Positions 6,639 through 59,148 of a stretch of DNA of 64,000 nucleotides are shown piece after piece. The notes below the pieces were generated by a model. It saw only the letters and a program-made list of their open reading frames with translations, ran no database searches and was not told where the DNA came from. Position 1 is the first letter of the stretch. Every line of letters starts with the position of its first letter. Location of the stretch: NCBI RefSeq assembly GCF_033115175.1, contig NC_084850.1:1363024-1427023 (forward strand), read 5' to 3'. A program made the translations under genes and the position numbers. The DNA comes from Lepus europaeus. Taxonomy: Eukaryota > Chordata > Mammalia > Lagomorpha > Leporidae.

Positions 6639-7292
6639 CTAAAGAGGTTGGATCATCTAGCATCTAGTTCCTTTTCCTTGTCAAAAGGGTTTCCCAGGGG
6701 GCATGCCATAGGGACTGTGTTGTAGAAAATCAGCAGAACTTTGTTGGAAAGAGGGCGACAGAACTGGATGAAGGATGACTGTTGCCTGGGAAACAAGAGC
6801 ATCAGGGCATATAAGAATGTGCCCACCATGTGGAATCACCATGAGTGAGATGAATGCAAGGAAGGCTCCAACCTGCCATAGTGATGAGGAAAACCCAGGT
6901 TTCTGATTCATCTTCCCTTAGGCAAGTAATGGTTTGGATTTCCTATGACAATGGAGATGCAAGCTCTGTGTGTGTAACTTATGCATTGTATCAGGCAGTA
7001 TTTACAGACTGAGTACCTTATGCTTGCCCAGCATGGAGATCTGGGTGTAAAGGCCCCTGTTTGTTCTGTGATGAAGAACAAACCACAAGCAAGTAAGATA
7101 ATTTATTCTAATTTCAGATAGTGATAGATATTTCTACAAGAACAGAACAGGGTGATGTGTTAAGATGTTGAAGGAATAGTGGGGAGGGGTACTTTAGGCT
7201 GGGTAGTCAAGGAAGCTTTCTTGTTGGGATTGCTGTTGCTGGCAGCCAAGTACGATCCCAAGTGAAAAGATGGTATTTAAAGTCATGGGATT

Positions 7293-7628
7293 GGGGCTAG
7301 CTTTGTGTCATAGTGGGCTAAGCCTCTGCCTTCAGTGCTGGAATCCCACATGTGCACCAGTTCAAATCCCAGCTGCTCCTCTTCCAATCCATCTTTCTGC
7401 TATGGCCTGAGAAAACAGTGGAAAGATGGCCCTCAAGTGCTTGGGCTCCTGTACCTGCATGGGAGACCCAGAAGCAGCTCCTATCTCCTGGCGTTGTATC
7501 AGCTCAGCTCCAGCTGATGCAGCCATCTGGGGAGTGAAGCAGCAGATGGAAGACCTTTCTCTCTGTCTCTTACCTCTCTCTGTCTGTAACTCTACCTCTC
7601 AAATAAATAGAATAAAATAAAAATCTTT
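7293..7628 (+). mobile_element. CSINE, + strand
   Basis: Head 'ggggctagctttgtgtcata' and tail 'aaataaatagaataaaataa'. A near-perfect TSD flanks it: 'aaagtcatgggattg' before and 'aaagttatggggttg' after. Confidence 0.9.
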
Positions 7629-7654
7629 AAAGTTATGGGGTTGACTGAGATAAC

Positions 7655-7850
7655 ATAGTTCAGTAGTTCTCAATTGTAAAGGTGCATCAGAATGACCAGA
7701 AGGGCTTGTTAATACTCAGGCTGTGGGATTCTACCCCCAGGTTTTCTGATTCAGTATGTCTGTTGTAGGGCCCACAAATTTGCTTTGCCATTCAGCTCCC
7801 GGAGTATTTTAATGCTCTTGGTGCCACTGTTGGAGAACTACTGCCCTTGG
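7655..7850 (+). mobile_element. MER5-type hAT (Charlie) DNA transposon remnant
   Basis: 'agtagttctcaattgtaaag' and the closing 'ggagaactactgcc' are consistent with decayed terminal inverted repeats. Between them 'catcagaatgaccagaaggg' and 'gattcagtatgtctg' match the order remembered for MER5A/B. The next stretch to 8839 has no recognisable element. Confidence 0.65.
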
Positions 7851-8839
7851 GCATGAGCATAGTTGGGAATAGGTGATTGAAAACTAAGCCTGGATTTAGA
7901 GGTTAGGAGTATGAGCTAGAGGTTAGGAGTATGAGCAGGTACAGATGAGGTTGAAAGAAAAACAGGAGGCTGTGATGATACTGAAGTCAGGGGAAGGTGA
8001 CAGTTTGAAAGAAGCAAGAGGGATCAACTACACTGAATGCTACCAGTTTGAGAACTGAGAAATGATATTGGATTTAGTAAGAGAAAACTCATTGGTTATT
8101 TTGGTAATAACATTACAGTGATAGATATAGACTGAAGTCTTAATACACTGCCTTAATGGAATATCAGGAGGGGAGGAGGGGAACACAGGGAGGGGCAGAA
8201 GCCCTTCCAAGGAGCTTTGTTCTGCAAAGGGAGAAAATACAAGTTTGAGTGGGATCTGGAATAAAGTGAGGCTCCTGCTTTTGGAAGCAGGCAAAATTCA
8301 TTTATTAATATGTGTACTGATATAATCAACTGAGATGCGAAGGGGGCGGGGAATGGTAAGTTTGAAGAGAAGAGATCATGAGAAATAGCCAAGTGGGAGA
8401 GTGAATTGACCAGAAAAATGGAGGATTTCTGGGTGGCCCTAAGGAGCTACTTGATGTGAGTGGTAACACATTTAAAGAGAAAGCAGTTGGCAGGTTGCAT
8501 TGGAGTATGCCCAGATGAATATGATCTGAGGAGAGCAGACTGGGGAATAATTATAATGCTGTCAGGATTGGGAACAATGAGAAGGTGGGAGATTAAGTAG
8601 TGGAGCTGAGTAATTGTTGGGAAACTGAGTGTGTAGGAAAGCTAAGAAGGGCAGCCAGAAAGTAGAAACTTAGGCATCAATTGTTGGTAGTTAGAATCAA
8701 GGGATGTGACCATGGCAATGGATGACCAAATTTACATGACCGAAAAAACATCTTAGGAGTTGAGAGAGGCAAGAAGCTAAGGTTTAGATATGGCTTCAGT
8801 TTTTTTCCCCAAGGGTGAGCTGTTAAAAAAGTGACCTCT

Positions 8840-10955: not shown

Positions 10956-10972
10956 GAAAATAAATGACCATA
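10956..10972. repeat. 5' target-site duplication of composite element A
   Basis: 'gaaaataaatgaccata' occurs here and again, identically, at 18645-18661. This brackets the whole composite element as one L1-type insertion. Confidence 0.93.
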
Positions 10973-11299
10973 GAGGGGGTAAGATGGCAGAATAGGAAGG
11001 GAACACACTGATAGTCCAGGAAGAGACAGTTTAATAAAAGTGGAGATACTGCAGGTTCAAGGAAGAGTAGGGGAAGAAACAGCAGAGGAAACTCTTCCAG
11101 AACTAGTGATTCACAGTGGACCTGCGTGGAGAGCGTGGGAGCCCAAGTTCGGGACACCAGCGGCAGACTCAACACACCAGCGCTGGAACGCGAGGTGAGC
11201 CGAACCTCAATAGCCCGAGACACCAGCAGGAAAGTGGAAAGAGGAGACTAGAGGGAACGAGGCTTGAAACTCCGTGGGGAAAAGTTCACTAGGCTAACT

Positions 11300-11306
<7 letters not shown>

Positions 11307-11340
<34 letters not shown>
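11307..11340. repeat. (AG)n microsatellite in L1 5' UTR
   Basis: About 17 AG units inside the 5' UTR of composite copy A. The equivalent place in the 43.7-kb L1 has a non-repeated 'gaggagagagggg'. Confidence 0.9.
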
Positions 11341-11345
<5 letters not shown>

Positions 11346-11910
11346 TGACCGATATGGACACGAGTTTCTCTCTCTCCGCTCACCTCTCAAAGGCAAGCAA
11401 GACAAAGAGCAGGCGCCATTTTGGACATACGTCATAAGCAGGGCGACCTCAGGTCTGCACCGGCCCTGAGCCTAGCAGAAAAACCTGACTCTGGGGGGGG
11501 GGTGAAAAAACAGGAGATTAGCATCTAACTTGGCAACCCAGTGGGAGATTGCAGGAGAACTGGAGCCCATGCTGAGGGCAGCACAGATTCCCTGTATGGT
11601 CCTTGGGAAAGAGCTTCCGATCTCTGGCTCCTGTGGGTATATCATTCGCCTGCTAACTACCTCCAATTCCGTTCAGCTGTGTGGAATTACTTCCCTTTTG
11701 AATAAAAAAAAAAAGGAAAGAGAGATTTACCACGCCTAACCTGGGAGTGTCAACTTTGGCACACCCTCAACCCTGAGGAACCAAACACAGCTCTCAGGCC
11801 ACACCCATCTCAAGCCTCTAAGGCTCCACTGAAAGCAGACAGTCCACTTAATCTAGACTCATAGTATAACAAGAAAAAACACCACAGTGAAGAAACCAAA
11901 TATCTCCAAC

Positions 11911-12945
11911 ATGCCAAACAACAAACGCAAAAACCAAGCTAACAAGAACAAGGAAGACACTATGATGCCCCCAAATGAAAAAGACACCCCAATTCAAGAT
12001 TATGAAGAGGAAGAGATAGAAGAAATGCAAGAAGCGGATCTCAAAAAATTGATAAGAACATTAAGAATTTCTCAAAAACAAATTCTTGAACTACAGAATT
12101 CCTTAATGGACAAGATAGAAAATCTCTCTCGTGAAAATGAAATCTTAAGGAGGAACCAAAATGAAATGAAACAACTAGTAGAACAAGAAACTGTGATAGT
12201 GAAGAGAAATCTTAATGAAATGAAGAATTCAATAGATCAAATGACAAACACATTAGAGAGCCTTAAAAACAGAATGGGCGAAGCAGAAGAGAGAGAATAT
12301 CGGACTTAGAAGACAGAGCACAGGAAAGTATACAGTCAAACCAAAGAAAAGAAGAGGAAATTAGAAATCTAAAATATATTGTCGGGAATCTACAGGATAC
12401 TATTAAAAAACCCAACATTCGGGTTCTAGGAGTTCCTGAAGGCATGGAGAGAGAGAAAGGATTAGAAGGCCTTTTTAGTGAGATACTAGCAGAGAACTTC
12501 CCAGGTTTGGAGAAGGACAGAGACATCCTAGTACAGGAAGCTTATAGAACCCCTAATAAACATGACCAAAAGAGGTCCTCACCACCACACATTGTAATCA
12601 AACTCACCACAGTGAAACATAAAGAAAAGATCCTAAAATGTGCAAGAGAGAAACGTCAGATTACTCTCAGAGGATCTCCAATTAGACTCACACACACTTC
12701 TCATCAGAAACCCTACAAGCTAGAAGGGAATGGCGAGATATAGCCCAGGTACTGAGAAAAACTGCCAGCCCAGAATATTATATCCTGCAAAGCTCTCATT
12801 TGTGAATGAAGGTGAAATTAAGACTTTTCATAGCAAACAGAAACTGAAAGAATTTGTTGCCACTCGTCCAGCCCTGCAAAAGATGCTTAAAGATGTGTTA
12901 CACACAGAAACACAGAAACATGGTCACCAATATGAAAGAAGGTAA
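11911..12945 (+). pseudogene. L1 ORF1 (RNA-binding chaperone), broken, in composite A
   Basis: The frame starts MPNNKRKNQANKNK and continues with a heptad-rich coiled coil (about 12000-12290), an RRM-like part with 'IRVLGVPEGMEREKGLEG' at about 12418-12471, and a C-terminal part ending QYERR-stop. Intact ORF1p is a trimeric single-strand RNA-binding protein needed for L1 RNP formation. Two lesions are visible: a 2-nt gain near 12290 relative to the 43.7-kb L1, which closes the coiled-coil frame at 12309, and a 1-nt loss in 'gactcacacacacttct' near 12690. The second is shared with copy B, so it predates their split. Confidence 0.9.
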
Positions 12946-13661
12946 AGGAAGGAAACCTCACAGCAAAAGATCACAAGAAGCTCAATTTCTCTTTGACATA
13001 GAATTAAAATCTGATGCTCTGTTAAAGCAATGGGTTAAAGTAATCTATTATGTTCTCTTGATGTCTGTTAAATTCTAATTGTTCAAAAACAGCAGAATTT
13101 TTATTAAGAGCTATTGGTTATTTAAATATGTGCTTATTTTCAAAAATTTGAATAATCACCTTGTAACAATGATCAAATTTGGTCTATATTATGTCATGAT
13201 TTTAAGGAATCTTATTTCAACCAGATATTTTGGATTTTGAGCCTTTTTGGCATTCTTGACAGGCATTCAAAAAATCAAAGTTTCAAACAATCTGAACTCT
13301 AAAATTTCCAGTAAATCTTGGACTTTGGTTTTTCCAGTTTGGGCCCAACTGAAAAAATCGAAAGACCTGTCTCTCATCTTATAGAGACACCAACTAATCA
13401 GGCTATTTGGATTATATTAGAAGGACTGTCAAGATGTGATGTGGTACCAAACTTTAAGTTTCTATAATGGAAAATGCTATTAATACAAATGTTTGAGAAT
13501 TAAAAAGTCTAATGATCTTGTGTTACTAGACATGATAGTTATCTTAATGAGAAAGCCCCAGAGGCCTAAAGGGTTAAATACTTGTGAAATCCTACAGGTG
13601 CTTTCAAAAATACTGTGAAGTAAGCAAGTTCCTCTTGTTGGCTGATGAGTTTATAATTTTA

Positions 13662-15855
13662 TTTTATTTTATTTTTTTAAACTTTTATTTAATGAATATA
13701 AATTTCCAAAGTACAGCTTATGGGTTACAATGGCTTCCCCCCTCCCATAACTTCCCTCCCACCTGCAACCCTCCCCTTTCCCGCTCCCTTTCCCCTTCCA
13801 TTCACATAAAGATTCATTTTCAATTCTCTTTAAATACAGAAGATCAGTTTAGTACATATTAGGTAAAGATTTCAACAGTTTGCCCATATAGCAACATAAA
13901 GTGAAAAAACTACCATTGGAGTACTAATTATAGCATTAAATAACAGTGTACAGCACATTAAAGACAGAGATCCTACATAATAGTTTTTTAAAAAATTAAT
14001 TAATTTTCTATGCCATTTCCAATTTAACACCAGGTTGTTTTTTTTTTCATTTCCAAATCTCTTTATATACAGTAGATCGATTCAGTATATAATTAGTGAA
14101 GACCTCATCAGTTTGTACCCACAAAGAAACCCAAAGTATAAAAAATACTGTTTCAGTACTAGTTATAGCATCACTTCACATTAGACAACACATTAAGGAC
14201 AGATCCCACATGGGGTGTAAGTACACAGTGACTCCTGTTGCTGACTTAACAATTTGACACTCCTGTTCATGGCGTCAGTAATCTCCCTAGGCTCTAGTCA
14301 TGAGTTGCCAGGGCTATGGAAGCCTTTCGAGTTCGCTGACTTTGATCTTATTCCGATAGGGTCATAGTCAAAGTGGAAGTTCTCTCCTCCCTTCAGAGAA
14401 AGGTACCTCCTTCTTTGATGGCCCCGTTCTTTCAACTGGGATCTCACTCACAGAGATCATTCGTTTAGGTCTTTTTTTTTCCATGATATCTTGGCTTTCC
14501 ATGCCTACTATACTCTCATGGGCTCTTCAGCCAGATCCGAAACAGTCAGGAAAGTGAAGAGGCAACCAACAGAATGGGAAAAAATATTTGCAAACTATAC
14601 TACAGATAAAGGGTTGATAACCAGAATCTACAAAGAAATCAAGAAAGTCCACAACAACAAAACAAACAACCCACTTAAGAGATGGGCCAAGGACCTCAAG
14701 AGACATTTTTCGAAAGAGGAAATCCAAATGGCCAACAGACACATGAAAAAATGTTCAAGATCACTAGCAATCAGAGAAATGCAAATCAAAACCACAATGA
14801 GGTTCCACCTCACCCCGGTGAGAATGGCTCACATTCAGAAATCTACCAACAACAGATGCTGGAGAGGATGTGGGGAAAAAGGGACACTAACCCACTGTTG
14901 GAGGGAATGCAAACTGGTTAAGCCACTATGGAAGTCTGTCTGGAGATTCCTCAGAAACCTGAACATAACCCTACCATACAACCCAGCTATCCCACTCCTT
15001 GGAATTTACCCAAAGGAAATTAATTTGGCTAATAAAAAAGCCATCTGCACATTAATGTTTATTGCAGCTCAATTCACAATAGTTAAGACCTGGAACCAAC
15101 CCAAATGCCCATCAACAGTAGACTGGATAAAGAAATTATGGGACATGTACTCCATAGAATACTATACAGCAGTAAGAAACAACGAAACCCGGTCATTTGC
15201 AACAAGATGGAGCAATCTGGAAAACATCATGCTGAGTGAATTAAGCCAGTCCCAAAGAGACAAATATCATTTGTTTTCCCTGATCGGTGACAACTGAGCA
15301 CCAAAGGGGAAACCTGTTGAAGTGAAATGGACACTATAAGAAACAATGAGCTGATCAGCTCTTGTCCTGACTCTAGATGTACAATGTAATACTTTATCCT
15401 TTTTAGTATTTGTTGTTGTTGTTCTAGTACTAGTGGTTGAACTCTGTAATTATCACACAATTATTCTTAGGTGTTTAAATTTTAACTGAAAAGTGATCCC
15501 TGTTAAATTTAAGAGTGGAAAAATAGAGGGAGGAGATGTACAATTTGGAACATGCTCAATTGGACTTGCCTCAAATGGTGGAGTTAGAAATGTGCCAGGG
15601 GATTCCAACACAATCCCCCAAGGTGGCATCTACCAATGCCATCGCACTAGTCCAAGTGATCAATTTCAGCTCACAACTGATGGCTCTGATAGGTCTAAGA
15701 GTCAAAGGGATCACACAAACAAGACAAGTGTCTGCTAATACTAACTGATAGAATCAAAAAGGGAGAGAAAGATCCAACATGGGAAGCGGGATACACAGCA
15801 GACTCATAGAATGGCAGATGTCCTAAACAACACTCTGGCCTCAGAATCAGCCCTC
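13662..15855 (-). mobile_element. L1 insertion with 5' inversion (twin-priming type), inside composite A
   Basis: TSD 'gagtttataatttta' lies at 13647-13661 and 15856-15870. From 13662 to about 14532 the sequence is L1 3' UTR on the minus strand. From about 14533 to 15855 it switches to the plus strand and carries the C-terminal third of ORF2 plus the proximal 3' UTR. The two halves meet at nearly the same L1 position, as twin priming produces. The minus part itself contains two L1 3' ends (13662-13979 and 13980-14532), so a second truncated L1 tail probably landed in the poly(A) region. The longest frame (14533-15297 on +, ending at the natural ORF2 stop) is only a fragment. Confidence 0.85.
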
Positions 15856-15870
15856 GAGTTTATAATTTTA

Positions 15871-17300
15871 AACATGGCAACTTAAAGTCTTTTGTCATTC
15901 ACAGTTAGATATGATTTGCTGCTCATAAAAATAAAGCGTTGTTGGTTCTGTGTTTAGCTGTCCTCCTATAGGTTCCTATGGACTTTTTCCAGCCACTTCT
16001 ATTGTATTCAGTACTTTGGGATGGCTCTGTAAACAGATGAAGCCAATAATGTATTAACAGTACCAACTGAGAGAAAGTATGGTTAACTGAGGTTACTAAA
16101 AACAAAAAGCAGTTCAAATCAATTGGCAATCTACAAAAAGAGTTAAAGATTTTAAAAGCAATTATTAAAATTGCTATATTGGTCTATTATGTTATGTTAT
16201 ATGTGTGTACATATTGTATGTCCACATGGGAAAATTTTATTAAGAATTTTATTTTAATCGGCTTATAGATAAGATTGTCCATAAATATAAGCTGCTAAAA
16301 TTAATCAAAGATACATTTTAATTTGTGTGACCTGAATCTGTGTATCATATGTTTTAAATGTGTTGGTAGAAAGAAACTAAAAACATTTTATATGGTTGTG
16401 CTTAAGTTTACTGGTTAAACAAACTACACCATGTTAGATATTTAAGAGGTGTTTCCAAATACATGATTCTTAAAATTTATAGAAGGAATTGGACCTTCTG
16501 GTGTTTTCTTAAGTTGTCATCTAATGGTTGAAACTGTTTGCTAAGTATTCATGTAATATTGCTATTGTCAGCAAGCGATCTAGGACTTGCTCCCTCATTT
16601 CTCTATTCTTTTTTTTCCTTTTTTTGACAGGCAGAGTGGACAGAGAGAGAGACAGAGAGAAAGGTCTTCCTTTTGCCGTTGGTTCACCCTCCAATGGCCG
16701 CCGCGGTAGGCGCGCTGCAGCCGGCGCACCGCGCTGATCCGATGGCAGGAGACAGGTGCTTCTCCTGGTCTCCCATGGGGTGCAGGGCCCAAGCACTTGG
16801 GCCATCCTCCACTGCACTCCCTGGCCACAGCAGAGAGCTGGCCTGGAAGAGGGGCAACCGGGAGAGGATCGGTGCCCCGACCGGGACTAGAACCCGGTGT
16901 GCCGGTGCCGCAAGGTGGAGGATTAGCCTAGTGAGCTGCGGCTCCGGCTCATTTCTTTATTCTAAGCCCAACTTGTTCTTTCATTTCTCTATTCTCTTCA
17001 AGGTAGGAAACTAATTCTATCATGAAGGAATCTGTAGGACGCACAATTTAATCTTTAGACCTTATAAAAGAGATGGCTAACATTTTTCTATAACAGCATA
17101 GCCAAAATAAGAGCTTAAATTATAATTTCATAGCTAGATTTACTTCGCCATCAGCAAAGTAAACAGTAAGTAGAAAAAACCTCCCTTTCAGACCAAAGGG
17201 AAAGAAAGTTTTAAAGTGAGAATATAATTTTGCTCATGGGCATTGTCTACCTTAGAAAAACTACTACAGAACATGCCTGTGACTATAGACTTGTAGTTCA
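15871..17300 (+). other. Unassigned middle block of composite element A
   Basis: AT-rich sequence with no L1 similarity I can see, present also in copy B (about 27170-28030) at high identity. Together with 12988-13646 it forms the piece joining ORF1 to the retroviral fragment. Copy B lacks the part corresponding to about 13047-13646 and 15871-16100. No frame or motif was recognised; it may be further retroviral non-coding or gag sequence. Confidence 0.5.
16610..16948 (-). mobile_element. CSINE (younger subfamily), - strand
   Basis: Runs from a T-rich 'tttttgacaggcagagtgga' start to 'gagctgcggctccgg'. TSDs 'ctcatttctctattct' (16594-16609) and 'ctcatttctttattct' (16949-16964) flank it. Copy B has the uninterrupted target at about 27669. 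Confidence 0.93.
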
Positions 17301-17309
17301 GGCCACCGA

Positions 17310-17850
17310 AGATTAGAGATGGGACTTGGGCACTCCCTTGACTTGCATCCTCTGGTCTGCTTTAACACAAACCAGGAGGAAAAGAAAGCTAGGCATCAGA
17401 AGCAATGGGTGGCAGGCCTATGAATGGCTGATCTGTACAGTGATATGCCCTCAAGGAGACCCAACAGGCCAGTCCACTGCAGTGGCTTTCAATGTGGTAA
17501 GCCTGGGCTTCAGCAGAAGTCAGCTTGTGAAGAGCCCTGGCAGCTCTGCCAAGAGTTGGATCACTGGAAATGGACCTGCCCTGGAGTCGAAGGATGCCCA
17601 GGTCAGAGCCACAGATCTTATTGGCTCTAAGCTGAAAAGCCCTTCACTCAGCCCAACTTCCAAAGTGACCACTGCAGCTGAGGGGACGGCCACGTAAGGT
17701 CAGGAACATTGAAGGCAGAACTGTAAATTTCTTGTTAGAGATGCCACCTGCCTTTACCTGGCCAGCTCTCCTCCCAGGACAGCCAAGTAATGAAAGTCAA
17801 CAGAGTGACTTCCCCTAGGAGGTTCACACCTCCCTTAGGATATACCCCAT
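17310..17850 (+). pseudogene. Endogenous-retrovirus gag nucleocapsid-protease fragment (captured)
   Basis: One frame reads FQCGKPGL...C then CQELDHWKWTCPG (about 17485-17600), which looks like two CCHC zinc knuckles of a class I-type retroviral nucleocapsid with lost residues: the usual His of knuckle 1 reads Leu, and the first Cys of knuckle 2 reads Trp. About 110 nt later, after stops and frame changes, comes EGRTVNFLLEMPPAF (about 17711-17756), resembling a retroviral protease active-site region whose Asp-Thr-Gly triad is gone. The nucleocapsid-then-protease order and spacing support the call. Copies B and D carry the same block, so it belongs to the composite family. No intact viral protein is encoded. 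Confidence 0.6.
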
Positions 17851-18196
17851 GTGAAGAGATAGATAGGTCTGGGCCTCTTAACTTAAAGCCCAACAGATTA
17901 TTATCAAGCCCCTTCTGTCAGGTTCTATTTGCCTCTCAATCAGAAAACTTAATTGTAGCTTAGACAGCACCTTTCTTAGCTCCTCTAATAATGACTCTGT
18001 CCTTTGTTCTAGACCCTGTCTAGCACACTTGGGCCTCATTCCTTTGTAATCATAACCTCTACTCTACCACCAATGGCTCTACTCCCAACCTGTGTGTACT
18101 GATGGTCCTCTTCCCCACTTAATGCTGTATAATTGTTCAAACCTGGTAAATGCCACTCTTAGGATCATTGGTTACTATCCTCACCCAGTCCTTTAT

Positions 18197-18644
18197 GACC
18201 TTGTCTAAATATGATCAGAGTCGGCGAACTTGGAAGGCTTCCTTAGCCTCGGTACCTCATGATGAGAGCCTAGGGTGGTTACTGGCGCCATAAACTAGAG
18301 TGTCAATTTTTTTGGGTCAACAACAGGAGTCACTGTGCACTTGCTCCTCATGTGGGATCTCTGTCCTTAATGTGCTGTACATTGTGACTTAATGCTATAA
18401 CTAGTACTCAAACAGTATGTTTCACTTTGTGTCTCTATGTGGGTGCAAACTATTGAAATCTTTATACTAAATTGATCTTCTGTATATAAAGAGAATTGAA
18501 AATGTATCTTGATGTGAATCGAAGGGGAGAGGGAGTGGGAGAGGGGAGGGTTGCGGGTGGGAGGGAAGTTATGGGAGGGGGAATCCATTGTAATCCATAA
18601 GCCATACACTGGAAATTTATATTCATTAAATAAAAGTTAAAAAA
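18197..18644 (+). other. L1-type 3' UTR of composite A
   Basis: Aligns by eye with the end of the 43.7-kb L1 (50345-50816): 'gatctctgtccttaatgtgc', the G-rich 'gagggaagttatgggagggg' run, and the terminal 'tatattcattaaataaaagt'. L1 reverse transcriptase primes from the 3' end of such RNAs, which explains mobility without ORF2. Confidence 0.88.
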
Positions 18645-18661
18645 GAAAATAAATGACCATA
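18645..18661. repeat. 3' target-site duplication of composite element A
   Basis: Identical 17-bp partner of 10956-10972. Confidence 0.93.
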
Positions 18662-18737
18662 GTCATATGCATTTACTTCTTCACTCTTAATTCTATTCCA
18701 TTTATCTATATGTCTAGATTTATGGCAGTGTCACTCT

Positions 18738-26309: not shown

Positions 26310-26324
26310 AAAAACCAAATTATT
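26310..26324. repeat. 5' target-site duplication of U6/composite B insertion
   Basis: 'aaaaaccaaattatt' here and at 29357-29371, on both sides of the insertion in the old L1 ORF2. Confidence 0.92.
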
Positions 26325-26334
26325 GTGCTCGCTA

Positions 26335-26381
<47 letters not shown>

Positions 26382-26431
26382 GGCCCCTGCGCAAGGATGA
26401 CAAGCAAATTCGTGAAGCATTCCATATTTTT
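26325..26431 (+). pseudogene. U6 snRNA pseudogene at the 5' end of an L1-type insertion
   Basis: Covers the full ~107-nt U6 length, from 'gtgctcgctacggcagcaca' through 'aagattagcatggcccctgc' to 'ttccatattttt'. Against the canonical mammalian sequence I see three changes: T to A near base 10, C to A in 'gacaagc', and G to A in 'gaagcatt'. Upstream is L1 ORF2, not a Pol III snRNA promoter (no PSE or TATA context). Together with the direct fusion to L1 sequence at 26432, this marks it as a retrocopy rather than a functional gene. The ACAGAGA box is intact. Confidence 0.95.
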
Positions 26432-27066
26432 CAGAGACAGGAAAGGAAACAGGCAAGCCAAAGAAAAGAAGAAGAAATTAGAAATCTAAAAAATATGTTT
26501 GGGAATCTACAGGATACTATTAAAAAACCCAATATTCGGGTTCTAGGAGTTCCTGAAGGCATGGAGAGGGAGAAAGGATTAGAAGGCCTTTTTAGTGAGA
26601 TACTAGCAGAAAATTTCCCAGGTTTGGAGAAGGACAGAGACATCCTAGTACAGGAAGCTTATAGAACCCCTAATAAACATGACCAAAAGAGATTCTCACC
26701 ACGACACATTGTAATCAAACTCACCACAGTGAAACATAAAGAAAAGATTCTAAAAGGTGCAAGAGAGAAACGTCAGATTAGTCTCAGAGGATCTCCAATT
26801 AGACTCACACACACTTCTCATCAGAAACCCTACAAGCTAGAAGGGAATGGCGAGATATAGCCCAGGTACTAAGAGAGAAAAACTGCCAGCCCATAATATT
26901 ATATCCTGCAAAGCTCTCATTTGTGAATGAAGGTGAAATTAAGACTTTTCATAGCAAACAGAAACTGAAAGAATTTGTTGCCACTCGTCCAGCCCTGCAA
27001 AAGATGCTTAAAGATGTGTTACACACAGAAACATAGAAACATGGTCACCAATATGAAAGAAGGTAA
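26432..27066 (+). pseudogene. L1 ORF1 3' half, broken, in composite B
   Basis: Open from about 26495 through FGNLQDTIKKPNIRVLGVPE (RRM-like region), then frame loss at the shared 1-nt deletion ('ctcacacacacttct') and stop at 26860. The C-terminal part continues in another frame to the natural stop at 27066. Confidence 0.88.
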
Positions 27067-28029
27067 AGGAAGGAAACCTCACAGCAAAAGATCACAGGAA
27101 GCTCAATTTCTCTTTGACATAGAATTAAACTCTGATGCTCTGTTAAAGCAATGTGTTAAAGTAATCTAAAAACAAAAAGCAATTCAAATCAATTGGCAAT
27201 CTACAAAAAGAGTTAAAGATTTTAAAAGCTATTATTAAAATTGCTATATTGGTCTATTATGCTCTGTTATATGTGTGTACATATTGTATGTCCACATAGG
27301 AAATTTTATTAAGAGTTTTATTTTAAATGGCTTATAGATAAGATTGTCCATAAATTTAAGCTGATAAAATTAATCAAAGATACATTTTAATTTGTGTGAC
27401 CTGAATCTGTGAATCATATATTTTAAACGTGTTGGTAGAAAGAAACTAAAAACATTTTAGATGGTTGTGCTTAAGTTTACTGGTTAAACAAACTACACCA
27501 TGTTAGATATTTAAGAGGTGTTTTCAAATACATGATTCTTAAAATTTATAGAAGGCATTGGACCTTCTGGTAAATGTTTTCTTAAGTTGTTATCTAATGG
27601 TTGAAACGGTTTGCTAAGTATTCATGTAATATTGCTATTGTCAGCAAGCGATCTAGGACTTGCTCCCTCATTTCTCTATTCTAATTCCAAATTGTTCTTT
27701 CATTTCTCTATTCTCTTCAAGGTAGGAAACTAATTCTATTATGAAGGAATCTGTAGGACACACAATTTAATCTTTAGACCTTATAAAAGAGATGGCTAAC
27801 ATTTTTCTGTAATAGCATAGCCAAAATAAGAACTTAAATAATAATCTCATAGCTAGATTCACTTCGCCATCAGCGAAGTATACAGTAAGTAAAAAAAAAC
27901 CTCCCTTTCAGACCAAAGGGAAAGAAAGTTTTAAAGTAAGAATATAATTTTGCTCATGGGCATTGCCTACCTTAGAAAAACTACTACAGAACATGCCTGT
28001 GACTATAGACTTGTAGTTCAGGTCACCAA

Positions 28030-28560
28030 AGTTTAGAGATGGGACTTGGGCACTCCCTTGACTTGCATCCTCTGGTCTGCTTTAACACAAACCAGGAGGA
28101 AAAGAAAGCTCGGCATCAGAAGCAATGGGTGGCAGGCCTATTAATGGTTGATCTGTACAGTGATATGCCCTCAAGGAGACCCAACAGGCCAGTCCACTGC
28201 AGTGGCTTTCAATGTGGTAAGCCTGGGCTTCAGCAGAAGTCAGCTTGTGAAGAGCCCTGGCAGCTCTGCCAAGAGTTGGATCACTGGAAATGGACCTGCC
28301 CTGGAGTCGAAGGATGCCCAGGTCAGAGCCACAGATCTTATTGGCTCTAAGCTGAAAAGCCCTTCACTCAGCCCAACTTCCAAAGTGACCACTGCAGCTG
28401 AGGGTGTGGTCAAGTAGGGTCAGCAACATTGAAGGCAGAACTGTAAATTTCTTGTTAGAGATGCCACCTGCCTTTACCTGGCCAGCTCTCCTCCCAGGAC
28501 AGCCAAGTAATGAAAGTCAACAGAGTGACTTCCCCTAGGAGGTTCACACCTCCCTTAGGA
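28030..28560 (+). pseudogene. ERV nucleocapsid-protease fragment in composite B
   Basis: Same knuckle-like FQCGKPGL and CQELDHWKWTCPG motifs as copy A, here in a frame open over 28039-28350. The protease-like segment follows at about 28432-28480. The same residues are missing as in copy A, so the decay was inherited from the family progenitor. Confidence 0.58.
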
Positions 28561-30784
28561 TATACCCCATGTAAAGAGATAGATAGGTCTGGGCCTCTTA
28601 ACTTACAAGGCCTAAAGCCCAACAGATTATTATCAAGTCCCTTCTGTCAGGTTCTATTTGCCTCTCAATCAGAAAACTTAATTGTAGTTTAGACAGCACC
28701 TTTCTTAGCTCCTCTAATAATGACTCTGTCCTTTGTTCTAGACCCTGTCTAGCACACTTGGCCCTCATTCCTTTGTAATCATAACCTCTACTCTACCACC
28801 AATGGCTCTATTCCCAACCTGTGTGTACTGATGGTCCTCTTCCCCACTTAATGCTGTATAATTGTTCAGACCTGGTAAATGCCACTCTTAGGATCATTGG
28901 TTACTATCCTCACTCTGTCTTTTATGACCTTGTCTAAATATGATCAGAGTCGGCAAACTTGGAAGGCTTCCATAGCCTTGGCAACTCATGACAACAGCCT
29001 AGGGTGGTTGCTGGCGCCATAAACTATAGTGTCAATTTGTTGGGTCAACAACAAGAGCCACTGTGCACCTGCTCCTCATGTGGGATCTCTGTCCTTAATG
29101 TGCTGTACATTTTGATTTAATGCTATAACTAGTACTCAAATAGTATGTTTCACTTTGTGTTCCTATGTGGGTGCAAACTGTTGAAATCTTTATACTAAAT
29201 TGATCTTCTGTATATAAAGAGAATTGAAAATGAATCTTGATGTGAATGGAAGGGGAGAGGGGAGGGTTGTGGGTGGGAGGGAAGTTATGGGAGGGGGAAG
29301 CCATTGTAATCCATAAGCTGTACACTGGAAATTTATATTCATTAAATAAAAGTTAAAAAAACCAAATTATTATGTAAATAGATGCAGAGAAAGCATTTAC
29401 TGGGAACAGAAGGAACATTTCTCAACGCAATCAAGAAAATTTATGACAAAACCACAGCCAGTGTCCTATTGAATGGGGGAAAAGCTGGAAGCATTTCAAC
29501 AGAGATCTAGAACCAGACAAGGATGCCCACTCTCACCACTGCTATTCAATATAGTCCTGGAACTTTTAGCCAGAGCCATTAGACAAGAAAAAAGAAATCA
29601 AAGGGATACAAATCGGGAAGGAGGAAGTCAAACTGTCCCTATTTGCAGATGACATGATCCTATATATAGAGGATCCTAAAGACTCCACCAAGAGACTATT
29701 GGAACTCACAGAAGAGTTTGGAAATGTAGGAGGATATAAAATCAACACACAAATATCAACAACCTTTGTATGCCCAGACAATTCCATGGCTGAGCTTCTA
29801 AGATAAATCCCATTCACAATAGGTACCAAATAATCATAACAAAGATCTCTTTGATGAGAATTATAAAACATTAAAGAAAGAAATAGAAGAAGATACAAAA
29901 ACATGGAAAAATCTTCCATGTTCATGAATTGGAAGAATTAACATCATCACAATGTCTATACTATTGGAAGCAATTTACAGATTCAGTGCAATACCAATCA
30001 GAATACCAAAGATATTCTTCTCAGATCTAGAAAACATGATGTTGAAATTCATATGGAAACACAGGAGACCCCAAATAGCAAAAGCAATCTTATACAACAA
30101 AATCAAAGGCGGAAGCATCACAATACCAGATTTCAAGACATACTACAGGACAGTTATAATCAAAACACGTTGATACTGGTACAAAAACAAATAGATAGAC
30201 CAACAGAACAGAATGGAAGCACCACAAGTCAATCCAAGTATCTACAACCAACTTACCTTTGACACTGGAACTAAAATCAATTCCTAGAGCAAAGACAGTC
30301 TCTTCAACAAATGGTGCTGGGAAAACTGGAACTCCACATGCAGAAGCATGAACCAAGACCCTTTCCTTACACCTTACACAAAAACCCACCGAAAATGGAC
30401 TAAAGACCTAATCTATAACCTGACACCATCAAATTATTAGAGTACATTGTGGAAATAATACAAGACATCATCATAGACAAACAATTCTTGGAAAAGACCC
30501 CAGTGGCACAGGCAATCAAAGCAAAAACTGACAAATCAGATTACATCAAATTGAGAAGCTTTTGCACTGCAAAAGGAACAATCAGCAAAGTGAAGAGGCA
30601 ACCAACAGAATGGGAGAAAATATTTGCAAACCATACAACTGATAAAGGATTATAAATTATATATATTATATATATATATGTGTATATATATAAATATTTC
30701 AAGAAACTAAACAACAGCAAAACAATCTGGGTAAGAAATGGGCAAAGGACTTAAACAGACATTTTTCAAAAGAGGAAAACCAGA

Positions 30785-36132: not shown

Positions 36133-41409
<5,277 letters not shown>

Positions 41410-43704: not shown

Positions 43705-43716
43705 AAAATATTCCCA
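43705..43716. repeat. 5' target-site duplication of full-length L1
   Basis: 'aaaatattccca' here and identically at 50817-50828. Confidence 0.88.
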
Positions 43717-44720
43717 AGATGGCGGAATAGGAAGGGAGCACATTGACTGTCCGGGAAAAGACAGTTTAATAAAAGTGGAGATACTGCAGTTCCAAGGAAG
43801 AGTTAGGGAAGAAACAGCAGAGGAAACTCTTCCGGAACTGCTGGTTCACAGTGGACCTACGTGGAGGGCACGGCCGCCCATGGCTCGGGACCCCAGCCGC
43901 GGAATCTATGCACCAGCGGTGGAAAGGGAGGTGAGCCGAAACCCCAGTATCCCGAGACACCAGTGGGATTGTGGAAGGAGGAGCCTAGAGGGAATGAGGC
44001 TTGAGGTCCCGTGGGGGAAAGTTCACCAGGCTAACTAGAGGAGAGAGGGGAAAAAATGGACAGGTATGGACACGAGTCTCTCCCTCCACTCACCGTTCAA
44101 GGGCGAGCAAGACAAAGAGCAGGCGCCATTTTGGACATATGTAGGGGCTGCGCCTGGCACTAACCAAGCAGAAAAACCTGACTCTGGGTGGGTGAAACAA
44201 TAGGAGGTTGGGACCTGGTGAATGTGTGGAGCTAATGAACTGAGACTATGAAGAACTGAAGGTGTGGGAGAGAACTCACGGAGACGTGAGTGCTCTCGGG
44301 AGAGTACACAAACTCAGTAACCTTGGCAACCCGGTGGGAGACAGCAGAGACATTTGAGCTTACAGTGAGGACTGCATAAATCCTTGGTGTGGTACTTGGG
44401 ACAGAGCAGATGAATATTATACCCACAGAAGGCAGAGATCAGAAATTAACTGCCTTCAATTCCGCTCAGCTGTGCGGAATTACTTCCCTTCTGAATCAGA
44501 GAGAGAGAGAGAGAGAGAAAGAGAGCGAGAGAGATTGATTTACCACGCCTAACCTGGGTGTGTCAGCTTTGGCACACCCTTAACCCTGAAGAACCAAACA
44601 GAAGCACCCTTCAGAAGCCTCTAAGGATCCATCAAAAGCAGACAGTCCACTTAATACAGTCATAGTATAACGAGACAAAACACCACAGCGAGGGAAGAAG
44701 AAACCAAAGAATATCTCCAC

Positions 44721-45754
44721 AATGCCAAGCAACAAACGCAGAAACCGAGGAAACAAGAACAAGGACATTATGACATCCCCCCAAATGAACAAGGCACCCC
44801 AATCCAAGATTATGAAGATGATGAGATAGAAGAAATGCAAGATACGGATTTCAAAAAATTTTTGATAAGAACATTTAGAAGTTTTCAAAAAACAACTTTT
44901 TGAAGTACAGAAATCCTTACTGGACAGGATAGAAAATCTCTCTCGTGAAAATGAAATCTTAAGGAAGAATCAAAATGAAATGCAGAAACTAGTAGTGTGA
45001 TAGTGAAGAGAAATCAAAATGAAATGAAGAATTCAATAGATCAAATGACAAACACATTAGAGAGCCTTAAAAACAGAGCCAGTGAAGCAGAAGAGAGAAT
45101 ATTGAACTTAGAAGACAGAGCAGAGGAAAGTATACAGTCAAACCAAAAAAAAGAAGAGGAAATCAGAAATCCAAAAAACATTGTTGGGAATCTACAGGAC
45201 ACTATTAAAAGACCAAACATTCGAGTTCTAGGAGTTCCTGAAGGCATGGAGAGAGAGAAAGGATTAGAAGGCCTTTTTTTTGGTGAGATACTAGCAGAGA
45301 ACTTCCCAGGTTTGGAGAAGGACAGACATTCTAGTACAGGAAGCTCATAGAATCCCTAGTAAACACGACCAAAAGAGATCCTCACCACGACACGTGGTAA
45401 TCAAACTCACCACAGTGAAACATAAAGAAAAGATTCTAAAATGTGTAAGAGAGAAACGTCAGATTACTCTCAGAGGATCTCCAATTAGACTCACAGCAGA
45501 CTTCTCGTCAGAAACCCTACAGGCCTTGGAGGGAATGGCAAGACATAGCCCAGGTACTAAGAGAGAAAAACTGCCAGCCCAGAATACTATATCCTGCAAA
45601 GCTCTCATTTGAGACTGAAGGTGAAATAAAGACCTTTCATAGCAAACAGAAATTGAAAGAATTTGTCGCCACTCGTCCAACCCTGCAAAAGATGCTTAAA
45701 GATGTGTTACATACAGAAACACAGAAACACGGTCATCAGTATGAAAGAAGGTAA
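44721..45754 (+). pseudogene. L1 ORF1, frameshifted
   Basis: Starts MPSNKRRNRGNKNK and ends HQYERR-stop. Indels early (about 44765-44870), near 45000 and at 45275 ('ggccttttttttggtg') break it. The coiled coil NEMKNSIDQMTNTLESLKNR and RRM-side 'NIRVLGVPEGMEREKGLEGL' are readable. The site that is 1 nt short in composites A and B is intact here ('gactcacagcagacttct'). Confidence 0.9.
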
Positions 45755-45823
45755 AGGAAGAAAACCTCACAGTAAAAGATCACATGAAGCTCAAAGCACA
45801 TATTAGAAAATATCTTTGGGAAA

Positions 45824-48800
45824 ATGGCAGGGCAAAGTTACTACTTATCAATAGTCACGTTGAACGTTAACGGCCTCAACTCTCCAGTTACAAGACACAG
45901 ACTGGCTGAATGGATTAAGGAACAAAACCCATCTATTTGCTGCTTACAAGAAACACATCTTTCCAACAAAGATGCATGCAGACTAAAAGTGAAAGGCTGG
46001 AAAAAGATATCCCATGCCAACAGAAACCAAAAAAAGCTGGCGTAGCCTTCTTAATATCAGACAACATAAACTTTAATACAAAAACTGTTAAGAGAGACAC
46101 AGAGGGGCACTACATAATGATTAAGGGATCAATTCAACAGGAAGATATAATGATTATCAATTACAGGGCACCGGGACTTAAAGGGAACTTAGGCTCCAAT
46201 ACAATAGTACTGGGGGACTTCAATACTCCACTCTCAGAAATAGATCAACCAGACAGAAGATCAACAAGAAAACAGTAGATTTAAATGACACTATAGCCAA
46301 ATGGATATAACAGATATCTACAGAACTTTTCATCCTACACTTAAAGAATTTACACTTTTCACAGCAGTACATGAAACCTACTCTAGGACAGACCACATAC
46401 TAGGCCATAAAGCAAGTCTCAGCAAATTCAAAAGAATTAGAATCATACGATGCAGCTTCTCAGACCACAGTGGAATGAAGTTGGAAGTTAGCAATAGCGA
46501 CTCATGAATCCCTAGAGCATATGCAAACACATGGAGACTGAACAACATGCTCCTGGATGAACACTGGGTCATTGAAGAAACCAAATCTTTCTGTAAGTAA
46601 ATGAGGATAACAGCACAACACATCAAAACTTATGGGACACAGCAAAAGCAGTGTTAACAGGAAAGTTTATAGCAATAGGTGCCAACATCAAGAAATTAGA
46701 AAGGAACCAAATAAATGAGCTTCCAATGCATCTCAAGGATCTAGAAAAACTGCAGCAAACCAGACCCAAAACTAGTAGGAGAAGAGAAATAATTAAAATC
46801 AGAAGAAATCAACAGGTTTGAATAAAAAAAATTACAAAAAATCAGCCAAAGGAGGAGCTGGTTTTTTGAAAAAATACACAAAATTGCCACATCATTGGCC
46901 CAACTAACTAAAAAAAGTAGAGAAAAGACCCAAATCAATAAAGTCAGGTATGAACAAGGAAATGTAACAACAGACACCACAGAAATAAAAAGAGTCATCA
47001 GAAATTGCTACAAAGAGTTGTATGCCAGCAAACCGGGAAATCTATCAGAAATGAGTAGATTCCAGGACACATGCAACCTACCTAAATTGAACAATGAAGA
47101 CATAGAAAACCTAGACAGACCCATAACTGAGACAGAAATTGAAACAGTAATAAAGGCCCTCCCAACAAACAAAAGCCCTGCACCAGATGGATTCACTGCT
47201 GAATTCTACCAGACATTTAAAGAAGAACTAACTCCAATTCTTCTCAAACTATTCAGAACAATCGAAAAAGAGGGAATTCTGCCAAACTCTTTCTAAGAAG
47301 CCAGCATCACCTTAATCCCTAAGCCGGCAAAAGATGCAGCATTGAAAGAGAATTACAGACCAACATCACTGATGAACATAGATGGAAAAATCCTCACTAA
47401 AATTCTGGCCAATAGAATGCAACAGCACATCAGAAAGATCATCCACCCAGAGCAAGTGTGCTTTATCCCTGGTATGCAGGGATGGTTCAATGTTTTCAAC
47501 ACAATCAATGTGATACACCACCTTAACAGACTGCAGAAGAAAAACCATATGATTCTCTCAATAGATGCAGAGAAAGCATTTAATAAAATACAACACCCTT
47601 TCATGATGAAAACTCTAAGCAAACTGGGCATAGAAGGAACATTCCTCAATACAATCAAAGCAATCTATGAAAAACGCACGACCAGCATCCTATTGAATGG
47701 GGAAAAGTTGGAAGCATTTCCGCTGAGATCTGGTACCAGACACAGATGCCCACTCTCACCACTGCTATTCAATGTAGTACTGGAAGTTTTAGCCAGAGCC
47801 ATTAGGCAAGAAAAAGAAATTAAAAGGATACACATTGGGATGGAAGAAGTCAAACTATCCCTCTTTGCAGATGATATGATTCTTTATTTAGGGGATCCAA
47901 AGAACTCTACTAAGAGACTATTGGAACTCATCCAAGAGTTTGGCAAAGTAGCAGGATATAAAATCAATGCACAAAAATCAACAGCCTTTGTATACACAGG
48001 CAATGCCATGGCTGAGAAAGAAATTCTAAATCAATCCCATTCACAATAGCCACAAAAACAATCAAATACCTTGGAATAAACTTAACCAAGGACGTCAAAG
48101 ATCTCTACGATGAGAACTACAAAATCTTAAAGAAAGAAATAGAAGAGGATACCAAAAAATGGAAAAATATTTCATGCTCATGGATTGGAAGAATCAATAT
48201 CATCAAAAGGTCCATTCTCCCAAAAGCAATTTATAGATTCGATGCAATACCAATCAAAATACCAAAGGCATTCTTCTCAGATCTGGAAAAAAATGATGCT
48301 GAAATTCATATGGAGACCAGGAGACCTCAAATAGCTAAAGCAATCTTGTACAACAGAAACAAAGCCGGAGGCATCACAATACCAGTTTTCAGGACATACT
48401 ACAGGGCAGTTGTATTCAAAAGAGCATGGTACTGGTACAGAATCAGATAGGTAGACCAGTGGAACAGAATAGAAACACCAGAAATCTATCCAAACATCTA
48501 CAGCCATCTTATATTTGATCAAGGATCCCAAACCAATCCCTGGAGTAAGGACAGTCTATTCAATAAATGGTGCTGGGAAAACTGGATTTCCACGTGCAGA
48601 AGCATGAAACAAGACTCCTACCTTACACAAAAATCCACTCAACATGGATTAAAGACCTAAATCTACGACCCGACACCATCAACTTATTAGAGAACATTGG
48701 AGAAACCCTGCAAGACATAAGCACAGGCAAAGACTTCTTGGAAAAGACCCAGGAAGCACAGGCAGTCAAAGCCAAAATTAACATTTGGGATTGCACCCAA

Positions 48801-49585
48801 TTGAGAAGTTTCTGTGCTGCAAAAGAAACAGTCAGGAAAGTGAAGAGGCCAAAAACAGAATGGGAAAAATATTAGCAAATTATGCAACAGATAAAGATTT
48901 AATAATCAGAATCGACAAAGATATCAAGAAACTCCAAAACAACAAGTCAAACAACCCACTCAAGAGATGGGCCAAGGACCTCAATACATATTTTTCAACA
49001 GAGAAAATCCAAATGGCCAACAGACACATGAAAAAATGTTCAGGATCACTAGCAATCCGGGAAATGCAAATCAAAACCACAATGAGGTTTCACCTCACCC
49101 TGGTCAGAATGGCTCACATACAGAAATCGACCAACAATGGATGCTGGAGAGGATGTGGGGGAAAAGGGACACTAACCCACTGTTGGTGGGAATGCAAACT
49201 GGTAAAGCCACTATGGAAGTCAATCTGGAGATTCCTCAGAAACCTGAATATAACCCTACCATACATACAACCCAGCCATCCCACTCCTTGGAATTTACCC
49301 AAAGGAAATTAAATTGGCAAACAAAAAAGCAGTCTGCACCTTAATGTTTATTGCAGCTCAATCCACAATAGCTAAGAACTGGAATCAACCCAAATGCCCA
49401 TCAACAGTAGACTGGATAAAGAAATTATGGGACATGTACTCCATAGAATACTATACAGCAGTAAAAAAAATGAAATCCGGCCATTTGCAACAAAACGGAA
49501 GAATCTTGAGCACATCATGCTGAATGAAATAAGCCAGTCCCAAAGGGACAAACATCATATGTTCTCCCTGATCAGTGACAACTAA
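45824..49585 (+). pseudogene. L1 ORF2 (endonuclease/reverse transcriptase), broken
   Basis: The endonuclease start MAGQSYYLSIVTLNVNGLNS lies 70 nt after the ORF1 stop. The readable reverse-transcriptase part (47342-48049) contains FADDMILYL at about 47861. The C-terminal Cys-rich segment [17 protein letters not shown] lies at about 49147-49200, and the frame ends ISDN-stop at 49585. At least six frameshifts or stops interrupt it. Confidence 0.92.
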
Positions 49586-50828
49586 CCAAGCACCAAAAAG
49601 GAATCCTGTTGAAACGAAATGAACACTATTAGAAAGAGTGACTTGATCGGCCCTTGTCCTGACGGTTGATGTACAACTTAATACTTTATCCCTTTTAGTA
49701 TTTTTTTGTTCTACTTAATACTATTGGTTGAACTATGTAATTAACACACAATTATTCTTAGATGTTTAAATTTAACTGAAAAGTGATCTCTGTTAAATAT
49801 AAGAGTGGGAATAAGAGAGGGAGGAGACGTACAATTTGGGACATGCTCAAGCTGACTTGCCCCAAACGGTAGAGTTAGAAATGTGCCAGGGGATTCTAAT
49901 TCAATCCCATCAAGATAGCATGTACCAATGCCATCTCACTAGTCCAAGTGATCAATTTCAGTTCACTGTTGAACATACTAATAGGTCTAAGAGCCAAAGG
50001 GATCACATAAAAAGACTAGTGTCTGCTAATACTAACTGATAGAATAAAAAAGGGAGAGAACGATCCAACATTGCGGGATACACAGCAGACTCACAGAATG
50101 GCAGATATCCTAAACAGCACTCTGGCCTCAGAATCAGCCCTTAAGGCATTTGGATCTGCCTGAAGCGCCCATGAGAGTATATTAGGCATGGGAAGCCAAG
50201 ACACTCTGGCAAAAAAAAAAAAAAATAAAAATAAAAATAAAAAACCTAAATGAAAGATCTCTGTGAGTGAGATCCCAGTAGAAAGAACGGGCCATCAAAG
50301 AAGGAGGTACCTTTCTCTGAAGGGAAGAGTGAACCTCCACTTTGACTAAGACCTTGTCTAAATATGATCGAAGCTGGCGAACTCAAAAGGCTTCCATAGC
50401 CTTGGCAACTCATGACAAGAGCCTCGGGAGATGACTGACACCATAAACAGGAGTGCCAATTTGTTAAGTCAGCAAGAGGAGTGACTGTGCACTTACTCCC
50501 CATGTAGGATCTCTGTCCTTAATATGTTGTTCAATGTGAATTAATGCTATAACCAGTACTCAAACAGTATTTTACACTTTATGTTCTGTGTGGGTGCAAC
50601 CTGTTGAAATCTTTACTTAATATATACTAAACTGATCTTCTGTATATAAAGATAATTGAAAATGAATCTGGATGTGAATGGAATGGGAGAGGGAGGGAGT
50701 GGCAGTTGGGAGGGTTGCGGGTGGGAGGGAAGTTATGAGGGGGAAGAAGCCATTGTAATCTACAAGCTGTACTTTGGAAATTTATATTTCCTAATACAAG
50801 TTTTATAAAAAAAAGAAAAATATTCCCA

Positions 50829-55100: not shown

Positions 55101-55606
55101 GGTATAAATCGGAAGTAGCCCTTAGAGGACGGGAATCGAGGGTAGGGCACGTCCAGCTCACCTGCCTGCTGGCCTCCTGCCCGCAAGGAAGGCTCTGACT
55201 GGCGGACGCTCTCAGGGAGTCTTAAGGAAGGGGAAGGTAGGGCTGGCAGGGTCACAGTGTCAGAATCAGGGAGCTTCGCGTGGCAGCAGGGCCTGGAGAT
55301 TGGATGCCCTGTGCCTCGAATCTGCTCCATCCTGAAGCGCAGATGGTGACGGAGATGAGACAGCATGTCCTGTCAAGGCGAAACTTCCCTCCTGGGAGCA
55401 CGGAGAACACAGAAAAGACCTGGATCCCCTGCACAGCGTGCACACGTGCAACAGCGCCCTGAGGACATCTGCGACGGAGCGTGCCTGCACTGCTTCTACC
55501 GCCAAGAAGGGGCCCTTACTGACTCGACCTGCACTCACCCAGCTGCAGTGAGAGGCGTGCAGACGGGATATGTGTCTTCTGGAGGACAGATGCTCGGTCC
55601 CCGGGT
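52173..55606. other. Unique sequence, no supported gene
   Basis: Several overlapping short frames occur on both strands, none with recognisable domains. GC content is above that of the L1 regions and no transposon was recognised. Nothing coding can be supported. Confidence 0.5.
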
Positions 55607-59110: not shown

Positions 59111-59148
59111 AAAACATCGGCTCCAAATCTTATCTATTTCCCATATGG

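Follow-up and report, generated by a model that had tools for sequence, protein, structure and literature searches.

What kind of element begins and ends as an L1 yet carries non-L1 sequence where ORF2 would be expected, and is it a one-off rearrangement or a member of a mobile family? This question is raised by an element, copy A, at positions 10974-18644 of the stretch of Lepus europaeus DNA analysed here (64,000 nucleotides in all, the window). Alignment to a long L1 elsewhere in the window (43716-50819) upheld the original prediction that copy A consists of an L1 5' UTR and ORF1, a non-L1 middle and an L1 3' UTR, all on the forward strand. The L1-type 5' UTR (10974-11910), 77% identical to the long L1 (43716 on) across the first ~540 bp, is followed by a frameshifted ORF1 (11911-12945) and an inter-ORF segment (12946-12985). 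The 5' junction lies immediately 3' of GAAGCTCAA (12977-12985), ~30 bp upstream of the position corresponding to the long L1's ORF2 ATG, which we identified by our own reading as the place where L1 ORF2 begins. The non-L1 sequence, ~2.65 kb in all, occupies a left (12986-13646), a central (15871-16605) and a right part (16951-18195), separated by two later insertions foreign to the element. The first (13647-15870), read from the sequence, is a nested L1 at ~13662-15855 with GAGTTTATAATTTTA on both sides, to which the ORF2 end at ~14540-15297 belongs; the second (16606-16950) is a SINE also present elsewhere in the window, named CSINE in the original prediction. The alignment places the 3' junction at ~18194-18200, within the L1 3' UTR, of which the final ~450 bp, with an A-rich tail, close the element (18196-18644). 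At both composite-specific places the long L1 carries unrelated sequence. The two junctions predicted near 12987 and 18197 both exist, with their positions refined, and flank comparison shows that the target-site duplication around copy A, GAAAATAAATGACCATAG (10956-10973 and 18645-18662), is 18 bp long and not 17 bp.

Two further copies in the window, both on the forward strand, proved to have their own target-site duplications, as had been predicted. Copy D (58221-59110) is a 5'-truncated 3' fragment that retains the end of the middle, the L1 3' UTR and an A tail, and flank comparison places it between two instances of AAAACATCGGCTCC (58207-58220 and 59111-59124). Copy B contains the final ~60% of ORF1, the middle with an internal deletion, the L1 3' UTR and an A tail (26432-29358). 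It had been taken to begin at 26432, but its insertion starts earlier: a complete U6 snRNA (26325-26431, forward strand; Rfam, 114.6 bits) is joined directly to ORF1, and a single duplication found by flank comparison, AAACCAAATTATT (26312-26324, repeated at 29359-29371), surrounds both, as in a template-switch chimera. A published study describes U6/L1 chimeras of this kind (PMC4476161); copy B likewise has U6 5' of the element within one target-site duplication, and its fusion represents a single insertion event, not the founding structure of the family.

Across the 2.93-Gb genome, there were 7,961 matches to the 5' junction pattern (at most two mismatches of 25) and 17,282 to the 3' junction pattern (at most two mismatches), whereas the reversed control patterns for both junctions gave 0 matches. 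Because the 20 copies that were fetched had been chosen by their middle, full L1s that carry ORF2 and share only the 3' junction may also exist. Both ends are present in 13 of these 20 copies (length 4.5-5.5 kb, mostly near 5.1 kb), and in 13 of the 20 the alignment begins no more than about 26 bp from the element start of copy A. ORF2 is absent from the 13 two-ended copies: their 5' part, middle and 3' UTR all lie within 4.5-5.5 kb, which leaves too little room for it. When copy A is included, nine of 14 two-ended copies have an exact target-site duplication of at least 10 bp, compared with 0 of 182 mismatched flank pairs; in the other five the exact duplication is shorter than 10 bp, and matches of 8 or more also turn up in 13 of the 182 mismatched pairs. 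Extra bases lie between the duplication and the element start in L018, L022 and L028, and the 5' part is inverted in three of the 20 fetched copies (L017, L020 and L023). The composite is a very numerous mobile L1-nonL1-L1 family without ORF2. The original prediction of a mobile family, not a one-off, is confirmed by the junction counts and the duplications; the search that it had proposed, for many copies with the same junctions, target-site duplications and poly(A), found them in this genome, and thousands of junctions replace the three copies to which the family might have been confined.

We consider it probable (about 0.82) that the composite is a non-autonomous, ORF1-only (HAL1-like) L1 with a probable retroviral core, mobilized by L1 ORF2p in trans. 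L1-type mobilization is supported by the A-rich tails, the target-site duplications, the 5' inversions and the U6 chimera, and the chimera and the inverted 5' parts point to the L1 reverse transcriptase in particular. These features, which agree with the L1 mobilization originally proposed, are hallmarks of insertion; that the ORF2p would act in trans is our inference. The composite RNA would be transcribed from the L1 promoter in the 5' UTR and coated by the composite's own ORF1p, and the ORF2p of full L1s would then cut the target and copy this RNA in trans.

The middle is probably retroviral in origin, judging from its sequence relatives. Older copies that end in LTRs, some of them carrying poly(A), share 79-90% identity with much of it, the donor copies diverging from it by 10-21%. 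Those located in L017+L029 and L035 are 79-85% identical to the right part; within the left part only the final ~105 bp match an older ERV-like donor (82%, jointly with the central part), and sequence searches found no donor match for the leftmost ~550 bp. Relatives of the central and right parts continue into LTR-like sequence with AATAAA, not into L1 3' UTR, and several have A runs. At 17321-17700 there is a frame, read by eye, that resembles a gag zinc knuckle and the start of a protease; the gag zinc-knuckle-like frame is kept in 13 of 19 copies. Six pieces of the middle gave no match in Pfam at E<=1, nor did the 102-aa gag-like frame of copy B in Pfam, PDB or a large protein set. The ERV middle of the original prediction agrees with the LTR-ended relatives and the retained frame and is probable. 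A pattern just inside the 5' junction matched 8,105 times (at most three mismatches of 30), hardly above the 7,961 for the junction itself (at most two of 25); this count gave no sign of an external donor for the left part, although a donor diverged by 15-20% would escape it. L036, considered as a donor reaching upstream of the 5' junction, proved to be 5'-truncated.

The probable ERV segment would have displaced ORF2 together with the initial portion of the 3' UTR. We put at about even odds a founding event in which, within one L1 insertion, the reverse transcriptase switched from L1 RNA to ERV-type RNA and then returned; the two sides have about three bases in common at the 3' junction and may share two at the 5' one. 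A rival reading, which we place somewhat below even odds, is that DNA recombination produced the founder, deletions having joined a copy of L1 to a copy of an ERV with no template switching. Deletions do happen in this family, as its internal length classes show, and the one in copy B has three bases common to its ends; RNA switching driven by L1 is nevertheless visible in copy B, which is not decisive. The middle occurs in classes of ~1.82 kb (copy B), ~1.94 kb and ~2.11 kb (L037, one copy). Splicing was rejected as the source of the internal deletions in the ~1.82-kb and ~2.11-kb classes, where GT-AG ends are absent by eye.

It is plausible, though we rather doubt it, that the composite is an ordinary and already catalogued leporid HAL1 or L1 subfamily, in which the middle is a long spacer or 3' UTR and no retrovirus was captured. 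HAL1 (half-L1) elements, which are ORF1-only derivatives of L1, originated on several occasions in mammals (PMC5753468). With 17,282 3' junctions, the present family is unlikely to have been missed by repeat libraries and may be catalogued already; the failure of the middle to match any protein also suits this explanation; no leporid element of such a design was named among the matches listed in full-text literature searches. Such an origin is harder to reconcile with the LTR-like sequence into which the central and right parts run in older copies, and with the unrelated sequence of the window's long L1 at both places.

We regard as unlikely the suggestion that the middle was captured as a processed copy of a host transcript, from a gene or an lncRNA, that contained pieces of ERV. 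A tails are present on several donor copies and target-site duplications on two or three, which resembles processed transcripts, and the L027 donor has two LTR-like ends that differ from each other. Donor-type sequences are nonetheless many (1,964 and 3,968 first-look candidates) and have LTR-like ends in common, as in a repeat family. That a single founder locus was multiplied by segmental duplication, a concern raised with the original prediction, or by gene conversion is hardly credible: some copies are indeed neighbours (for example, C1:24829666 and 24839124), but the copies examined have separate target-site duplications and differing flanks, together with A tails, 5' truncation, inversion and the U6 fusion.

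HAL1s use ORF2p in trans. Like HAL1, the composite has an L1 5' UTR and ORF1, lacks ORF2 and occurs in many copies with A tails and target-site duplications; unlike HAL1, it has ~2.65 kb of probable retroviral sequence in place of ORF2, and its ORF1 is intact in five of the 12 fetched copies that span it. Published work describes SVA as a composite of repeats with Alu-derived and HERVK10-derived parts (PMC5753468; for SVA/LAVA also PMC7353768 and PMC4432496). The composite shares with SVA and LAVA its composite build, non-autonomy and L1-type insertion, its own ERV-derived part being probable; it differs from SVA in that L1 provides both ends and ORF1, and a VNTR is not apparent, no tandem array being listed at a score of at least 50 between 11342 and 18661. 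SVA is not known to have an L1 ORF1 or a protein-coding gene of its own, whereas the intact composite ORF1 encodes a 345-aa L1 ORF1p. ERV copies processed by L1 are known, for example the HERV-W pseudogenes, and several donor-type copies likewise terminate at a poly(A) site and carry A runs; the composite, in contrast, is a novel chimera whose two ends are both L1. It has no ORF2 with the endonuclease and reverse transcriptase of an autonomous L1, and is bounded by an L1 5' UTR and an L1 3' UTR rather than by the LTRs of an endogenous retrovirus. The composite is best read as uniting two known kinds, HAL1-like and SVA-like.

If undescribed, it would join two ways of parasitizing L1, the retention of ORF1 (HAL1) and retroviral capture (SVA). 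Its copy number would then rank it among the genome's large repeat families, and counts of both L1 and ERV would be wrong wherever repeat masking breaks it into fragments of the two. It is conceivable, though we think it improbable, that the retroviral core aids the RNA in export, stability or ORF1p packaging, and so let an ORF2-less element that makes its own coat protein outnumber the parental native L1 lineage and split into several shortened subfamilies. Because native L1, the composite and shortened composites coexist, any benefit of an ORF1 in cis or of the captured retroviral segment can be tested by comparing these classes.

The three intact ORF1 proteins that were tested (L016, L022 and L025) contain Pfam PF02994 and PF17490, that is, L1 RBD-like and dsRBD-like domains. 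Among the 50 variable ORF1 sites common to at least two copies, 26 fall in third codon positions (p 0.005 compared with one third), and the difference in codon bias between shared and singleton sites is weak (p 0.065). A native L1 (L038) has an ORF1, itself broken, with about 92.5% identity; the differences number 19, 17 and 38 by codon position.

The composite, in which an L1 5' UTR and ORF1 are followed by a non-L1 middle and by the end of an L1 3' UTR, without ORF2, represents a mobile family and not a one-off rearrangement, as both of its junctions recur thousands-fold, bearing out the original prediction. When junction patterns were matched at ≤2 mismatches across the 2.93-Gb genome, which resembles that of a leporid in its L1s and SINEs, the 5' junction gave 7,961 matches (4,150 + 3,811) and the 3' junction 17,282 (8,922 + 8,360), and the reversed patterns of both junctions, used as controls, gave none. 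The surplus of 3' junctions is as expected from 5' truncation, and some copies carrying them may differ upstream. Native L1 patterns gave 6,206 matches at the 3' place and 1,163 at the 5' place; these patterns come from the window L1 and are one base off the commonest listed form, so the native/composite ratio is indicative only.

Copy A (window 10974-18644) comprises, in order, an L1 5' UTR, a broken ORF1, the non-L1 middle and an L1 3' end within exact TSDs of 18 bp each (10956-10973 and 18645-18662); the structure and the perfect duplications had been predicted correctly, and only their length, put at 17 bp, required correction. Two later insertions interrupt the middle: a SINE (~16606-16950) and an L1 (~13662-15855), the latter flanked by a 15-bp duplication that can be read directly in the sequence. 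This nested L1 (13647-15870; duplication GAGTTTATAATTTTA) has a 5' inversion, with part of its 3' UTR inverted beside the end of ORF2, and its ORF2 frame stops at 15297. Alignment to the long native L1 at window 43716-50819 places the 5' junction directly after GAAGCTCAA, ~30 bp upstream of the ORF2 ATG, and the 3' junction inside the 3' UTR, with ~450 bp of L1 left downstream; taking the nested ORF2 end as a rough yardstick, the 3' junction lies ~0.75 kb beyond the ORF2 stop. Comparison of the common native form (CTTTGACTATGACCTTGTC), the composite (TGTCTTTTATGACCTTGTC) and one donor copy (CAGTCTTTATACTACC) indicates that about three bases (TAT) are common to both sides of the 3' junction. 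A two-base overlap at the 5' junction is conceivable but weakly founded, as it requires that a short AATTTCTCTTTGA stretch seen by eye in the donor-type copy L027 represents the donor site.

Structure was compared in the first 20 of the 39 other best-ranking matches to the middle, fetched in rank order from elsewhere in the genome (L numbers); these are the copies most like copy A, and the sample is biased toward similar, probably young copies. The middle directly adjoins the 3' UTR in 17 of the 20 and ORF1 directly adjoins the middle in 14 (with a 2-bp alignment gap in L012), and both element ends are present in 13. The 3' UTR lacks its beginning in L010 and L017, and in L009 neither the right part of the middle nor the 3' end gave a match. 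Inverted 5' parts, a sign of twin priming, occur in three copies (L017, L020 and L023). Exact TSDs of at least 10 bp flank 9 of 14 copies (the 13 two-ended ones and copy A), a length reached by none of 182 mismatched pairs of 5' and 3' flanks (13 reach 8 or 9 bp). The remaining five have exact matches of 5 to 8 bp; by eye, L011 has a longer match with one mismatch and L016 no such longer match. Extra bases separate the TSD from the aligned element start in L018, L022 and L028. Median pairwise divergence was 2.9-4.2% for segments of the middle, 4.2% for ORF1, 6.6% for the 5' UTR and 4.5% for the 3' UTR, and the closest pairs are ~1-2% apart.

Copying of a composite RNA by an L1-type enzyme is strongly indicated by copy B (window 26325-29358), in which a complete U6 snRNA is fused to part of ORF1 and a single TSD encloses both (26312-29371). 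Fusions of U6 with L1 are known to arise when a LINE reverse transcriptase switches templates (PMC4476161). Copy B is indeed a further copy as predicted; its proposed start at 26432 had missed the U6 part upstream. We consider the composite-family interpretation supported, with a probability of about 0.82, slightly reduced since the copies compared had been selected on their middle; a retroviral origin of the middle is probable, and we infer that the composite would be mobilised in trans.

Internal length also varies. When the first 100 exact 5' junctions and the first 100 exact 3' junctions listed were compared, their overlap on one contig held 40 5' junctions, 28 of them paired with a 3' junction, at distances clustering at 1,812-1,822 (3 pairs), 1,922-1,944 (3), 2,106-2,113 (6) and 2,648-2,667 (12), with four single values. 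Composites on this contig thus fall into discrete classes of ~1.82, 1.94, 2.11 and 2.66 kb, and copy B (1,818) belongs to the shortest. The recurrence of these classes suggests deletion-bearing source lineages; alternatively, repeated independent deletions may account for them. Splicing was rejected as the source of the internal deletions in copy B and L037, whose ends are not GT-AG.

The middle is probably derived from an endogenous retrovirus, judging from older relatives that run on into LTR-like sequence. L017:1-1566 is 79% alike to window 16263-18140, and this copy continues into L029 with ~160 bp absent from the composite and then LTR-like sequence with AATAAA, not L1 3' UTR. L035 shows this arrangement too, with 85% identity across the right part of the middle, and the donor-type copy in L027, whose two ends are not alike, matches at 90% over window 17320-17955 and 82% over 13541-16149 and contains the extra ~160 bp. 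This L027 copy has poly(A) and the candidate TSD AAAGTAATTTA, and a composite inserted into it separates its two stretches (151-1764 and 6914-8570). None of the donors gave a match to the left ~550 bp of the middle. A first look for the LTR-like segment gave 3,968 candidates genome-wide; among the 40 scored (one being the query), 29 stop at the poly(A) site, with 2 others continuing past it. Copies in L031, L032, L034 and L035 end at this site with A runs. L027, L032 and L034 have candidate TSDs of 11, 10 and 12 bp, respectively; L031 and L035, which may begin beyond the fetched stretch, yielded none. Because its copies show only 76-88% identity to the L029 copy, the donor family is judged to be old; it is apparently a numerous ERV family, partly L1-processed itself given the A runs and candidate TSDs. 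Its retroviral nature is suggested by the LTR-like ends together with a frame in the middle that we take to resemble gag zinc knuckles, with a protease-like start after them. Both knuckle-like words share one frame in 13 of 19 copies, which are too alike for this to be much of a guide to selection. Counting against a retroviral nature, no protein family matched the middle, the ends of the L027 donor differ, and the left part of the middle has no match among the donors.

A full 345-aa ORF1 protein is encoded by 5 of the 12 fetched copies spanning ORF1 (L016, L019, L022, L025 and L028), and L1 RBD-like (PF02994) and dsRBD-like (PF17490) domains were found in all three intact ORF1s tested. Among 13 aligned ORF1s (the 12 and copy A; the aligned stretch begins at codon position 2), third codon positions hold 26 of the 50 sites at which two or more copies vary (p = 0.005, with one third as the expectation) and 52 of 136 singletons (p = 0.13), with p = 0.065 for the difference. 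This preference of shared variable sites for third positions suggests, short of proof, that source copies were under constraint to encode ORF1. A native L1 ORF1 (L038; 1,121 bp, frame broken), followed by native inter-ORF sequence and an ORF2 start, is 92.4-92.9% identical to the ORF1s of L016, L022 and L025, and differs from that of L016 at 19, 17 and 38 sites in codon positions 1, 2 and 3.

The composite shares features with HAL1, the ORF1-only L1s that reportedly arose several times in mammals, and with SVA, described as holding HERVK10-derived sequence and depending on L1 (PMC5753468). Unlike SVA, it has a gene of its own and no VNTR; the proposed combination of HAL1 and SVA features stands as a likeness to both. 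No such leporid element was described in the titles and abstract beginnings covered (for some lists, the top part), and passages of a rabbit TE paper make no mention of HAL1 (PMC12748216). Because the family is so large, it may well be already in Repbase or Dfam, and we do not claim its first description.

Among other repeats, four tandem arrays in window 37211-39781 have 105- or 114-bp units, lengths divisible by three, and may represent a coding region rich in repeats; a 34-bp tandem repeat lies at 55599-55873 (8.1 copies, 93% matches).
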